64,000 nucleotides of DNA from Actinoallomurus spadix (GTDB taxonomy: Bacteria > Actinomycetota > Actinomycetes > Streptosporangiales > Streptosporangiaceae): assembly GCF_024055725.1 (NCBI RefSeq), contig NZ_JAMXMX010000004.1, forward strand, positions 248,001 through 312,000, in the 5' to 3' direction. Made by a program: the position numbers and the translations under genes. Positions 1 through 4,054 of the stretch are shown piece after piece. Position 1 is the stretch's first letter, and each line of letters opens with the position of its first letter. The notes beneath the pieces were generated by a model, which did no database searches, was not told the origin of the DNA, and saw only the letters and a program-made list of their open reading frames with translations.

Positions 1-653
1 TCGCTCTTCGCCGTGGACAGCAGTGTGGCGTGCATCCTCTTGAGCCGCCGGCTCGCGCGCCACTCCCGTTGCTGGATCGGCTTCACCCAGGCCGGGAACT
101 CGTACGGACTCGCGATGATCGGGAAGAGTGCCTCCAGCATCGCCTGCGCCGTCTCCGGGACGGCGGAGGCGTCCCGGGTGCCGAAGCAGAAGCGGGCGAC
201 CGACGCCGAGGTGACCTCCGCGAAGGTCGCCATCAGGTCGTCGACGCGGCGCCGCCGGCGCAGTCGCTCGGACAGTTTGCCGGCCGTCCCGGTGAGCCAG
301 CGCGCGTGGTCTTCGAGCATCTCGGCCGTCATGCCGACGATGGCCGTCCTCCGGGTGGACATCCACGCGTCGAGCTGCGCGGAACCCGGCGTCGCCGTGG
401 ATCTTCTTCGTCTCAGGTCGCGATCCAGGAAGTACGTCCGGTTGGTGTTCCGGAGTACGGCGTGGACCTCCTCAGGGCCCGTCACCAAGATGGCGCCCGG
501 CCAGAGCCGCACCACCGGCCCGTACCGGCGCGCCGTCTCGTAGAAGAATCCGAGCCGATCGTTCTTGTAGGAATGCACCGCGTCGGCGCGGTCGAGGTCA
601 AGGGCGGGTATCTCATCGATATTCCGCGTGGTCTTGCTGACGTCAACAGTCAT
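1..653 (-). CDS. Cytochrome P450, N-terminal part (cut by window edge)
   Basis: Starts at ATG 653 and stays open to base 1, so at least 217 residues are present and the 3' end lies outside. The visible residues have the P450 N-terminal layout: FFYETARRYGPVVRLWPG near residue 35, the beta-1 strand ILVTGPEEVHAVLRN, then FLDRDLRRR and a helical stretch up to the edge. The haem Cys loop and the ExxR motif would be beyond the edge. It lies 89 bp downstream of a 31-codon gene in the same direction whose product ends in aromatic residues, which is the arrangement of P450-modified RiPPs (biarylitides, atropopeptides). I infer that it cross-links that peptide. A P450 with an unrelated substrate remains possible. 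Confidence 0.85.
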   Translation of the reverse strand, partial: MTVDVSKTTRNIDEIPALDLDRADAVHSYKNDRLGFFYETARRYGPVVRLWPGAILVTGPEEVHAVLRNTNRTYFLDRDLRRRRSTATPGSAQLDAWMSTRRTAIVGMTAEMLEDHARWLTGTAGKLSERLRRRRRVDDLMATFAEVTSASVARFCFGTRDASAVPETAQAMLEALFPIIASPYEFPAWVKPIQQREWRASRRLKRMHATLLSTAKS

Positions 654-742
654 TGATCGACCAGTTTCCCAGCGAACCCGCTGATCACCGGATCGGCGCC
701 TCCCGCCGGGAGCAGGAAGGCGGGAGACGCCGGGCCCTCGGC

Positions 743-838
743 TTAATGCCAGATGTAGCTGGCGGGATGCTCCTTGATTCCCACCATGCGCGCGAGCTTG
801 AGAATCAAGCGACTGAGCGGGGACGCCTGCTTGGTCAC
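743..838 (-). CDS. Candidate RiPP precursor peptide, C-terminus ASYIWH
   Basis: A 31-residue gene that begins with GTG at 838 and ends with TAA at 743. The start is set by a strong ribosome binding site, GGAGGGAGG, 5 nt upstream. The peptide begins VTKQASPLSRLILKL, has an amphipathic basic leader with several K/R, and ends KEHPASYIWH. The C-terminal Tyr-Ile-Trp-His is the kind of aromatic core that P450 enzymes cross-link: biarylitide cores end YxH and tryptorubin-type atropopeptide cores contain YIWY. The next gene downstream is a P450. No protease or transporter gene is visible in this window; genes past base 1 could supply them. Function is inferred from context and the core motif. Confidence 0.72.
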   Translation of the reverse strand: MTKQASPLSRLILKLARMVGIKEHPASYIWH

Positions 839-874
839 TGCAACCTCCCTCCGCTTTCGAGCGGTACACAAATC

Positions 875-903
875 ACAGTAAAGCGCAGTCATATGGCCGT
901 CAA
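875..903 (-). promoter_or_regulatory. Promoter of the RiPP precursor gene
   Basis: On the minus strand TTGACG (898-903) is followed after exactly 17 nt by TACTGT (875-880), both close to housekeeping sigma consensus. Transcription would start near 868, giving a leader of about 30 nt before the GTG start at 838. Confidence 0.55.
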
Positions 904-936: not shown

Positions 937-2151
937 CTACTCGTGCGGGGGCGCGCACAGCGCGTCGTCGACCAGCGTGTTCTCGGCCTCTTCCACGCGC
1001 ACGACGTAGTCCTGCGATTCGGCGATGGCGCCCGTCATGGAGAGCGTGACGCTGCGCCGGCCGTCGGCGGTGACGCCGGTGGCGGTGATCCAGCCGGAGT
1101 CGCCGCCCTCGTGGCCCCAGTAGACGCCGCCGCACGACAGGGGGCGCGAGAAGAGCCCGAGTCCGTCACGGGCGCCCGGCATGAGCGGTTCGAACGCCGT
1201 GCCGACCGGGATGGTCCGCTTCATCTGCGCCAGTTGCGCCGGTCGCAGGAGCCGGCCGCCGAGCAGGGCGCGGAAGAACCGGTCGAGGTCGGCGGTGGTG
1301 GAGACGAGCCCGGCCTCTCCGTTGCCGGCCAGGCCGACCTGCTCGGTGACGTCGATGAGCGGTTCGCCGGGCTGCCATCTCTGGTAGGTCTCGGCATGGG
1401 GCCGGGGCAGCGTGGGGGACGCGCCCGGCCAGAAGGTGTGCTGGAGGCCGAGCGTCCGGACGATCCGGTCCCGTACCTCCTCGTGCCAGGGGTGCCCGGT
1501 GACCCGCTGGATGACCATGCCGAGCAGGGCGTAGCCGGTGTTGGAGTAGCTCCAGTCCGTGCCGGGCCGGAAGTCCGGCCGCTGGCGCATCGCCCGTGCG
1601 ACGAGCTGCTCGGCGGTGTAGGTGTCGTACCGGTGCTGGTAGAAGTCCTCCTTCGAGGTGTAGTCGGGGTAGTCGTCGTGAGTGCCGCTGGTGTGCTGGA
1701 GCAGGTGGCGGAGGGTGATCGCGCGGCCGTCGTTGCCGTTTCCGCGCACCACGCCGGGCAGCCATCGCTCGACCGTGTCGTCCAGGGAGAGCCGGCCCTC
1801 GCCGGCCAGCTGCAGGATCACGGTGGCCGTGAACGTCTTGGTGACGCTGGCGATCCGGAAGTAGCCGTTCGGAGGGACCGGCCGCCGGCTCGTCACGTCG
1901 GTGACGCCACTGGTGGCGGTGACGTTCCGGCCGTCAGAGGTGACCAGGCGGGCCTGCACTCCCGTCACGCCGAGTGCGGTGATCGCGTCGGCGTCGCGCC
2001 GGAGCCGGAACTGGTCGTCGTGCGATGGGGCGGCGCTCGCGCCGGGTGCCCAGCCGGCGGAGAGAGTGCCGGCGACGATGGCGGCCAGGGCCAGGTTCCG
2101 CCGGGTGGATCGGCCGCGGCGCCGCGATGGGCGCTTCGATGAACTCGTCAT
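937..2151 (-). CDS. Secreted class C beta-lactamase-family serine hydrolase (D-Ala-D-Ala carboxypeptidase type)
   Basis: 404 residues from ATG 2151. The N-terminus is a Tat-like signal (STRRNLALAA near residue 16, cleavable after GASA-AP about residue 41), so the enzyme acts outside the membrane. All three family motifs are present: nucleophile Ser102 in SVTK (SxxK, Lys105), Tyr202 in YSN, and HEGGDSG near the C-terminus (HxG). The family contains DD-carboxypeptidases, esterases and peptide hydrolases, and the sequence does not separate them. The gene is divergent from a two-component system starting at 2259, which could mean shared control. A longer reading from 2247 has no better start signal and would bury the signal peptide. 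Confidence 0.88.
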   Translation of the reverse strand: MTSSSKRPSRRRGRSTRRNLALAAIVAGTLSAGWAPGASAAPSHDDQFRLRRDADAITALGVTGVQARLVTSDGRNVTATSGVTDVTSRRPVPPNGYFRIASVTKTFTATVILQLAGEGRLSLDDTVERWLPGVVRGNGNDGRAITLRHLLQHTSGTHDDYPDYTSKEDFYQHRYDTYTAEQLVARAMRQRPDFRPGTDWSYSNTGYALLGMVIQRVTGHPWHEEVRDRIVRTLGLQHTFWPGASPTLPRPHAETYQRWQPGEPLIDVTEQVGLAGNGEAGLVSTTADLDRFFRALLGGRLLRPAQLAQMKRTIPVGTAFEPLMPGARDGLGLFSRPLSCGGVYWGHEGGDSGWITATGVTADGRRSVTLSMTGAIAESQDYVVRVEEAENTLVDDALCAPPHE

Positions 2152-2258
2152 GGTCGTTGACGCTAGGTCTGACCGGGGAAGGCGGGCGATACGGCGCTCT
2201 AGTAGGAAAAAGGGGTAGTTGGCTGTAGTGCCGGGCCCGGTCGCCATGGCGCAGACTC

Positions 2259-3422
2259 GTGCAGGTGAACGATCATCGTGCGGCCGACCGGCTGCCGGCG
2301 ATGGCGCGTGGTCTGGGCTATCTCCTGGCGAGCCTGCTCACCGCCGCGGTCGCCCTGCTCGCGCTGCCCGTGCTCCTCGTCCCGGCGACGGCCCGTGCCT
2401 GGGCGTCCTGGCATCGGCGCCGCGCCGACCGGCTGCTGCGCCGTCCGCGTTCCGGTCCTGTCCGTGCCGGGGCGTGGCGGGTCCTCGGGTGGCTGGGCGC
2501 GTACGTGGTGACGAGCCTGGTGTTCGGGCTCGTCGCGGTGGTGTGCGCGGGCAACGCGGTGGCCACGGCCGTCACGGTGCCCTTGTGGTGGGCGTTGCCC
2601 GCCGGCACCCGCGCGGGCGGCTTCGCCGCCGGTGTTCCGCTGACCGGATGGGGCACGGCGCTGACCCTGGGGACCGTGCAGTTCGTCATCTTCGCGGCCC
2701 TGACGTACGGGCTGGTTCCGCCGCTGGCGCGCCTGCACGCACGAGTCGGCGTCGCGCTGCTGTCCCCCTCGGCCGCCGACGTGCTGGCGCAGCGGGTGGA
2801 GACGCTGACCGAGACGCGGGCCGGCGCCATGAACGCGCACGGCGCGGAACTCCGCCGGATCGAACGCGACCTGCACGACGGCACCCAGGCCCGGCTGGTG
2901 GCCATCGCGATGCGGCTGGGCGTGGCCCGTGAGTCGCTGGGCGAGGACCCCGAGCTGGTGGGCAGGCTCCTGCGGGAGGCGCATGAGAACACCGAGGAGG
3001 CCATGACCGAGCTGCGCGAGGTGATCCGGACGATCTATCCGCCGATCCTCGCCGATCGCGGACTCGCCGGGGCGCTGACCGCCCTGGGGAGCCGGTCGGC
3101 CATCGGCACCACTCTCGACATCGGCGGCCTCGGCACGATCCCCGCCGCGGTCGAGGCCGTGGCCTACTTCACGATCGCCGAGGCGCTCACCAACGCCGCG
3201 AAGCACAGCCGGGCCACCGGGACGACGGTCCGGGTCGCCCGCGCCGGTGACCGGCTGTCGATCGAGGTCACCGACGACGGGATCGGCGGCGCCGACGAGA
3301 CGCTGGGCACCGGCATCGCCGGGATCCGTCACCGCGTCCTGGCGATCGACGGCACCGTACGGGTCCACAGCCCCGCCGGCGGCCCGACGACGATCACTGT
3401 GAGCCTGCCGTGCGCGTCGTGA
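2259..3422 (+). CDS. Membrane sensor histidine kinase (NarL/HisKA_3 type)
   Basis: About 387 residues. The first 160 residues hold hydrophobic segments (GYLLASLLTAAVALLALPVLLVP, a second near 75-105, a third near 130-160) forming the membrane sensor. The HisKA_3 helix IERDLHDGTQARL carries the phospho-acceptor His206, and the HATPase has the N-box EALTNAAKHS and the G-box DDGIGGAD. Start choice is uncertain: GTG 2259, GTG 2265 and ATG 2301 are all in frame and none has a strong ribosome binding site. It overlaps the response regulator by 13 nt, so the pair is translationally coupled. The signal is unknown; the adjacent exported hydrolase suggests a cell-envelope role, which is inference. Confidence 0.88.
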   Translation: MQVNDHRAADRLPAMARGLGYLLASLLTAAVALLALPVLLVPATARAWASWHRRRADRLLRRPRSGPVRAGAWRVLGWLGAYVVTSLVFGLVAVVCAGNAVATAVTVPLWWALPAGTRAGGFAAGVPLTGWGTALTLGTVQFVIFAALTYGLVPPLARLHARVGVALLSPSAADVLAQRVETLTETRAGAMNAHGAELRRIERDLHDGTQARLVAIAMRLGVARESLGEDPELVGRLLREAHENTEEAMTELREVIRTIYPPILADRGLAGALTALGSRSAIGTTLDIGGLGTIPAAVEAVAYFTIAEALTNAAKHSRATGTTVRVARAGDRLSIEVTDDGIGGADETLGTGIAGIRHRVLAIDGTVRVHSPAGGPTTITVSLPCAS

Positions 3423-4054
3423 TCGCCGAGGACAACGTCCTGCTGGCCAGCGGACTGGAACTCCTGCTGACCGCCAAGGGCTTCGACGTCGCCGCGATCG
3501 CGCAGGACGGCCCCGGATTCATCGCGGCCGTCACCGAGCACCGGCCGGACGTCACCATCGTCGACGTACGGCTGCCGCCGACGTTCCGTGACGAGGGCAT
3601 CCACGCCGCCCTCCACGCCCGCCGCCGGAATCCCGGGCTGCCGGTGCTCGTCCTCTCCCAGTACGTGGAGCAGCAGTACGCCGGCGAGCTGATCTCCGAC
3701 CGGCGCGGCGGCGTCGGCTACCTCCTCAAGGACCGGGTGAGCCGGGTGAGCGAGTTCGTCGACGCCCTGCGGCGGGTCGCCGATGGTGGCACCGTCATGG
3801 ACCCCGAAGTGATCGCGCAGCTCCTCACCCGTCACACCCACGACCCGATCGCCGACCTCACCCCGCGCGAACGCGAAGTGCTCGCCCTGATGGCCGAAGG
3901 AAGAGACAACGCCACCATCGCGGCCCGGCTCGTCATCACCGAGAACGCCGTCCACAAGCACATCGGCAACATCTTCGCCAAGCTCGGCCTCTCCCCCGCC
4001 GACAGCGGCCACCGCCGCGTCCTCGCGGTCCTCACCTACCTCAGCCGCCAGTGA
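3410..4054 (+). CDS. Response regulator, NarL/LuxR family
   Basis: 214 residues from a GTG that overlaps the end of the kinase gene. The receiver domain has the acidic pocket AEDN (residues 6-9), phospho-acceptor Asp52 in IVDVRLP, and the conserved Lys in YLLKD. The C-terminal LuxR helix-turn-helix runs from LTPREREVLALMAEG to IGNIFAKLGL. It is the cognate partner of the kinase at 2259-3422. Its targets cannot be read from the sequence; the divergent hydrolase gene at 937-2151 is the nearest candidate. Confidence 0.92.
   Translation: MRVVIAEDNVLLASGLELLLTAKGFDVAAIAQDGPGFIAAVTEHRPDVTIVDVRLPPTFRDEGIHAALHARRRNPGLPVLVLSQYVEQQYAGELISDRRGGVGYLLKDRVSRVSEFVDALRRVADGGTVMDPEVIAQLLTRHTHDPIADLTPREREVLALMAEGRDNATIAARLVITENAVHKHIGNIFAKLGLSPADSGHRRVLAVLTYLSRQ

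Follow-up and report, generated by a model that had tools for sequence, protein, structure and literature searches.

Near the first base of a 64,000-nucleotide stretch of the Actinoallomurus spadix genome (referred to here as the window), a very short open reading frame with an aromatic C-terminus lies directly ahead of a cytochrome P450 gene. We asked whether this pair is a RiPP locus, whether it belongs to a described family, and which residues the P450 would join.

The peptide gene, its P450 and their relatives

The features of the locus and its flanking genes, in window coordinates, are:
743..838, minus strand: precursor peptide gene, 31 aa, MTKQASPLSRLILKLARMVGIKEHPASYIWH, GTG start, stop included (ORF reading and conservation)
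844..852, minus strand: Shine-Dalgarno GGAGGGAGG of the precursor gene (sequence; equivalent sites lie ahead of the three relatives' genes)
875..903, minus strand: promoter-like hexamers TTGACG (903-898), N17, TACTGT (880-875) (sequence; by-eye match at A. soli)
695..731, minus strand: hairpin between the precursor and P450 genes (folding; present in 4/4 members of the window's clade)
1..653, minus strand: cytochrome P450, N-terminal part (Pfam; ATG at 653, 422 aa overall)
937-2247, minus strand: beta-lactamase-family serine hydrolase (PF00144)
2259-3422 and 3410-4054, plus strand: sensor histidine kinase / response regulator-like divergent pair (by eye)

An earlier note had described a 31-codon gene ending in ASYIWH with a strong ribosome binding site and a P450 next to it, and we confirmed this arrangement: the gene reads from 838 to 743 on the minus strand, with an intergenic gap of 89 nt before the P450 gene. 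The latter extends 616 nt (with stop) past the window's first base, to G000:C44:247385, and its product matches Pfam PF00067 at E=5.7e-39. Both strands of the 64-kb window hold 29 Shine-Dalgarno-preceded ORFs of 20-45 aa, and only the precursor ends in [YH]xW within its last seven residues; ten 64-kb first-order Markov sequences, read on one strand each and containing 10-19 such ORFs per sequence, yielded none. The same note had given the gene its own promoter, TTGACG-17-TACTGT. These hexamers were located, and by eye the A. soli peptide gene is preceded by TTGACG/TACCGT at the same spacing, but similar hexamers were not found by eye inspection ahead of the KC06 peptide gene.

We found a short peptide gene just upstream of a homologous P450 in Actinoallomurus soli (MAKQASPLSRVIHKIARTVGIKEHPASYAWV; P450 83% identical to the window's), Actinomadura sp. 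KC06 (MIKHASLIGRVRHTFARWVGIREHPATHYWL; 65%) and a plasmid of Nocardia sp. NBC_00511 (MSRRLLYVAARLIGAKTRVRKYIWDVS; 43%), the Nocardia peptide being paired with its P450 by position and motif. The four P450s form a clade at 100/100 support in a 19-P450 tree. The peptides of the window, A. soli and KC06 share 15 invariant columns of 31, and dN/dS for the precursor is approximately 0.23 against KC06 and 0.49 against A. soli (NG86, over only 30 codons). A profile of these three peptides matched once in each of G000, G009 and G274, with no match in G149. At strict cut-offs the P450 search returned 3 of 341 family genomes and the identical three in 345 order genomes, while a three-row P450 profile at a strict cut-off, run on 394 class genomes, returned the window's genome only. 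A scan of one genome per species (84,980 species), driven by two short peptide patterns that distant relatives escape, returned A. soli, KC06 and an Agrobacterium P450 fragment (33%, residues 232-396) that we dropped as unrelated. The Nocardia pair was absent from that scan and was found by tblastn on plasmids, which bears out that the pattern-driven scan overlooks distant relatives. Since the species scan and plasmid tblastn together gave just three close relatives, the window's clade appears rare. The earlier remark that such a gene is too short for annotation pipelines was borne out in Nocardia, where the peptide gene has no CDS in the (incomplete) PLSDB table.

The genes upstream of the pair are common to the window and A. 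soli, and the next downstream gene that they share is approximately 3 kb more distant in the window's genome. At least the genes at 937-2247 and 2259-3422 are retained beside the locus in A. soli. With KC06 and Nocardia the window has nothing in common across the stretches compared but the P450 and the peptide gene, indicating that the pair is the unit; the minimal two-gene P450 RiPP locus proposed from the window alone is thus upheld by homologous peptides that precede homologous P450s in three relatives. The idea that the PF00144 serine hydrolase is a dedicated leader peptidase common to these loci was rejected: of the loci compared with the window's, A. soli has it next to the pair, and KC06 and Nocardia do not. 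No peptidase gene is common to the loci compared.

Our data indicate that the two genes very probably form a RiPP locus with a leader-bearing precursor and a P450 macrocyclase (a "cyptide" locus), probably with a Tyr28-Trp30 ring and a peptide freed by a protease. The precursor would probably be made in excess of the P450, given its strong Shine-Dalgarno and the hairpin after its stop. The P450 would bind the leader, in which the motif A-R-[LM]-[VI]-G is the putative recognition element. As conservation and published relatives suggest, the enzyme would then oxidatively couple the side chains of Tyr28 and Trp30, removing 2 H and closing a ring of three residues, and a host protease may then free a short cross-linked peptide, e.g., SYIWH or YIWH.

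Comparison with described P450 RiPPs

We next compared the locus with described systems. The earlier note had seen a resemblance to biarylitides and atropopeptides while assigning the locus to neither. The resemblance holds in kind, but the defining features of both families are missing, and the locus is neither. Like atropopeptides (tryptorubin), it is a two-gene P450 locus with an aromatic C-terminus, and YIW also occurs within AWYIWY. A KSLK-type motif is a feature of atropopeptide precursors (PMC11450843); it is present in 7/7 reference precursors (WYIWY-stop pattern) and absent from the peptides of the window and its three relatives. The atropopeptide xWxx pattern places Trp at core position 2, and the window's only Trp is the penultimate residue. 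By blastp, 6 of 7 reference P450s align with the window's over just 102-128 C-terminal aa, and for the seventh (L042) the ORF used was probably in the wrong frame. Within one genus, 7 of 150 genomes had tryptorubin-type (AWYIWY) precursors (L038-L044), and the alignable P450s of these loci carry a divergent heme motif, PFGHxxERCWG.

With biarylitides the locus shares a three-residue aromatic-x-aromatic target, and the variants MKYIW and MKYLW occur in Actinomadura (PMC13417212). A biarylitide precursor has approximately five residues with aromatics at 3 and 5, whereas the window's has 31 aa and a leader conserved in its relatives. P450Blt retains Glu238 and Ser239 in the I-helix (PMC10929621), where the window's P450 has Gly250-Ile251-Pro252. 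No entry named P450Blt or BytO was among the best 60 of 369 PDB sequences.

Cittilins, represented by L017 and L018 from the same searches, also have a short leader peptide, one P450 and an intervening hairpin (L017), but they differ in having a YxYY core and a P450 of another clade with E-T-T in its I-helix. The L017 peptide matches the cittilin model NF038373 (4.1e-16), which serves as a positive control, and the window's peptide gives no match to it.

Aminopyruvatides (ApyO/ApyA) resemble the locus in their aromatic-x-aromatic motif near the C-terminus (YLY in ApyA). YLW is found in 2 of 53 ApyA-type precursors, a YLW variant is shifted by -2 Da when treated by ApyO, and this enzyme needs a basic residue upstream of its target motif (PMC13192836). 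The apy cluster adds enzymes (MNIO and others), while the window's relatives share two genes only. Among NCBIfam models, the window's P450 scores best against RiPP cross-linking ApyO, at 110.5 bits, far under the NF050147 cut-off of 525 bits, and next against pentalenene oxygenase, at 71.4; membership in this family was rejected on that cut-off. The ranking of NCBIfam models says little, since the P450s of L015 and of the true cittilin locus L017 match the albaflavenone synthase model best.

Compared by description, the closest likeness is to the cyptides roseovertin, rubrin and lapparbin and to MpoB, with which the locus shares a short leader-bearing precursor beside one P450. In the broad sense of the term the locus is a cyptide, as a short precursor with conserved aromatics lies directly beside a P450 gene. 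Tyr-Trp links are known in lapparbin (Tyr C6-Trp N1') and rubrin (Tyr C6-Trp C7') (PMC12299652), and MpoB reportedly cross-links YPW (cited in PMC13383641), with Pro where the window's core has Ile between Tyr and Trp. Y-x-W as a P450 target is therefore already known, from YPW, MKYIW/MKYLW and ApyA-type YLW. In the accessible parts of the P450 RiPP literature searched, we found no description of the core SYIWH, its leader or the P450 clade, and the titles listed for Actinoallomurus RiPPs include no P450 peptide. We conclude that the locus is real and conserved and that it adds to the leader-bearing P450 macrocyclase RiPPs a member that is possibly undescribed, although it may sit in earlier survey lists.

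The novelty of the locus would fall if MpoB/YPW or lapparbin SlpB, YxW cyptides already catalogued, were its orthologue, or if a published P450 RiPP list contained it. This is possible, if somewhat unlikely, and agrees with the mechanism given above. Published surveys cover 1,057 P450 RiPP clusters in 11 categories, with 19 new groups named cyptides (PMC12299652), and the action of MpoB on YPW is in print (cited in PMC13383641); the rarity of the window's P450 clade, with its three close relatives, is at most an indirect point against it.

Core residues and the probable bond

The four cores are SYIWH (window), SYAWV (A. soli), THYWL (KC06) and KYIWDVS (Nocardia). An aromatic-x-Trp motif is present in 4/4; the first aromatic is Tyr in three of them, while KC06 has His there and Tyr at x. 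Conservation of the aromatic terminus had been set as a test, and the homologue search upheld it in part: aromatic-x-Trp is constant, whereas the final His of the window's peptide is not kept in the relatives and the Tyr is His in KC06. Since aromatic-x-Trp is constant, chemistry common to the clade must involve Trp30, whose simplest partner is the aromatic residue two positions ahead of it. On conservation and on the published relatives, the bond probably joins the side chains of Tyr28 and Trp30. In KC06, with His in the Tyr position and Tyr directly before Trp, the bond may differ.

The earlier note had left the choice among a Tyr-Trp, a Tyr-His and a Trp-His link. In the same kind of locus, a link through His31 (Tyr28-His31 or Trp30-His31) has a precedent in roseovertin, whose P450 links Trp C7' to His N-tau (PMC12299652), and the window's own peptide does end in His. 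However, A. soli, despite a P450 that is 83% identical, has Val in place of His31; KC06 has Leu, and Nocardia lacks the residue, with Asp-Val-Ser after the Trp, while Trp is kept in 4/4. Because the terminal His is not conserved, the Tyr-Trp member of the prediction is favored; links through His are improbable as shared chemistry and, if real, would by sequence be private to the window's species.

It is more improbable still that the P450 alters the peptide without a side-chain cross-link, e.g., by Tyr hydroxylation or nitration. Loss of cross-linking has a precedent among RiPP P450s in RufO, which nitrates a peptide of the biarylitide type (PMC12186263, PMC13417212). Against this, Trp is retained along with its partner aromatic, and a one-residue modification would not need both. 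Furthermore, the I-helix of the window's P450 does not carry the acid-alcohol pair of ordinary oxygenases, a loss that would be expected to disfavor oxygenation. The Tyr28-Trp30 cross-link thus stays the preferred reading.

Wider loci, the hairpin and the I-helix mark

At E<=1e-40, a profile of the four P450s gave matches in 13 of the 341 family genomes. In all 13 an aromatic-ended peptide gene precedes the P450, with a [YH]..W core in 12 and a cittilin-like YVYY in one. The further cores in the family are RYIYWPYHHGK (2 genomes), MYTYWNF[FW]N (3), KYPYWPYHYDK, AYPFYWG, RYHWATPTG, RYHWAW and the cittilin-like PYVYY; the peptide finder demanded aromatic residues near the C-terminus, and RYHWAW (L045) was chosen by eye from the unfiltered list. 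At E<=1e-38, 394 class genomes gave seven matches: besides the window and RYHWATPTG, already seen in the family, these were two cittilin loci (PYSYY) and three that by eye have no convincing peptide. Ten representative [YH]..W precursors can be aligned on two elements, the leader motif A-R-[LM]-[VI]-G, which some of them carry, and a subsequent Y-(x)-W; full invariance in this alignment is limited to Met1 and Trp30, and Tyr28 occurs in 9/10.

Six loci from genus g39 of the window's family (L029, L030, L034-L037) carry the cores YIYWPYHHGK, YTYWNFFN/NFWN and YPYWPYHYDK, with a leader motif similar to the window's and an identical I-helix mark. Their long aromatic cores could hold two rings. At L032 (1295-1369, G108, in the P450's orientation) the precursor is MTALKKFLRDVRAARTGAYPFYWG and the P450, with I-helix ASQEMP, sits on a long branch; this is possibly a further separate class. 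At L033 (1282-1365; G023, window's family) a cittilin-like precursor ending in TTPYVYY precedes a P450 with SGYETT.

The 13 [YH]..W P450s group with moderate support (88/89) in the 19-protein tree, which leaves out all seven atropopeptide P450s and L013b, and three cittilin-type P450s fall outside the group. When the seven atropopeptide rows are included (27 proteins), the deep order is not resolved (59/0) and 6 of 7 atropopeptide P450s lie far away. Overall similarity tells these P450s apart poorly: identity to the window's P450 is 29-32% for peptide-less/ordinary P450s and 28-32% for the nine more distant [YH]..W P450s. Bit scores against it are 125-147 for [YH]..W and 105-127 for cittilin-type P450s, which overlap, and 52-114 for peptide-less ones. 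An AlphaFold model from three alignment rows was unusable (pLDDT 37.6).

A strong stem follows the precursor stop in 7 of 12 loci folded, namely 4/4 of the window's clade (z -1.9 to -5.3, mononucleotide shuffles) plus L015, L045 and L017. The idea that every [YH]..W locus has this hairpin was rejected: none was seen in L029, L030, L034 or L032, and in L033 it lies further downstream. The window's hairpin is followed by no T-run. It likely raises precursor over enzyme. Alternatively, translation of the short ORF might serve only to regulate an ordinary P450, with the ORF acting as a leader or attenuator peptide, as a hairpin between the two genes might suggest. This is scarcely credible given the protein-level conservation of the ORF (dN/dS 0.23 vs KC06), the aromatic core and ARxxG that it has in common with precursors of other P450 RiPP loci, and the grouping of the P450s with those of these loci.

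Alignment of the canonical I-helix site, [AG]GxET[TV], separates the P450s. In 13/13 [YH]..W P450s, which include near-copies and represent approximately five lineages, the Thr is lost and a Pro is adjacent; the acid is lost in 11 of these, Nocardia and L032 retaining Glu. Glu-Thr is retained in 3/3 cittilin-type P450s (E-T-T) and in 4/4 peptide-less P450s (L016, L019, L020, L013b), whose status was assigned by eye; at L016 and L019 the finder had listed ORFs, but these overlap other reading frames. Six atropopeptide P450s also have no Glu-Thr at this site in a doubtful alignment that leaves out L042.

Beyond Nocardia, 14 plasmid records contained 15 P450 places, of which we examined six picked before their I-helices were seen. 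One of the six bears the mark (AAQGAP; Streptomyces sp. NBC_00161, L052), and MAKKISFIVSRVFGRSGDMAGYYNYR lies upstream of it. The five others, with ETT, ETT, DTT, DTS and ETV, have no acceptable upstream peptide gene by eye; at L056 an ORF overlapping the P450 start has an N-terminal YLW, and at L057 one ORF ends in HH. The NBC_00161 precursor gene lies at L052:1774-1854 on plasmid unnamed2 and has no CDS in the (incomplete) PLSDB table; an MFS transporter gene directly follows the P450 locus. Since this Pro-bearing P450 follows a Y-x-Y peptide, a restriction of the mark to Trp-containing cores was rejected, and this small test suggests that the mark tracks RiPP P450s of such kind and not Trp itself. 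We found no description of the Thr-loss/Pro mark in the available parts of the literature on the I-helix or its threonine in P450 RiPP cross-linking.

As a tentative and on balance doubtful extension, these loci may belong to a large unrecognized macrocyclase branch that can be recognized from the enzyme (xG[VI]P for [AG]GxETT, with ARxxG leaders). Its P450s would be radical couplers poor at oxygenation and would tolerate Tyr or His opposite an invariant Trp.

The locus adds one leader family and a four-member P450 clade to the P450 macrocyclases. The 31-codon genes of such loci escape gene callers, and the I-helix mark offers an enzyme-only handle on precursors too short to find by their own sequence, one that is testable on any genome set. 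The natural core series YIW, YAW, HYW and YIW asks which residue pairs one enzyme clade joins. If the reading of a larger branch is true, the Actinomadura HYW core would bear a His-Trp or adjacent Tyr-Trp bond undescribed at such spacing.
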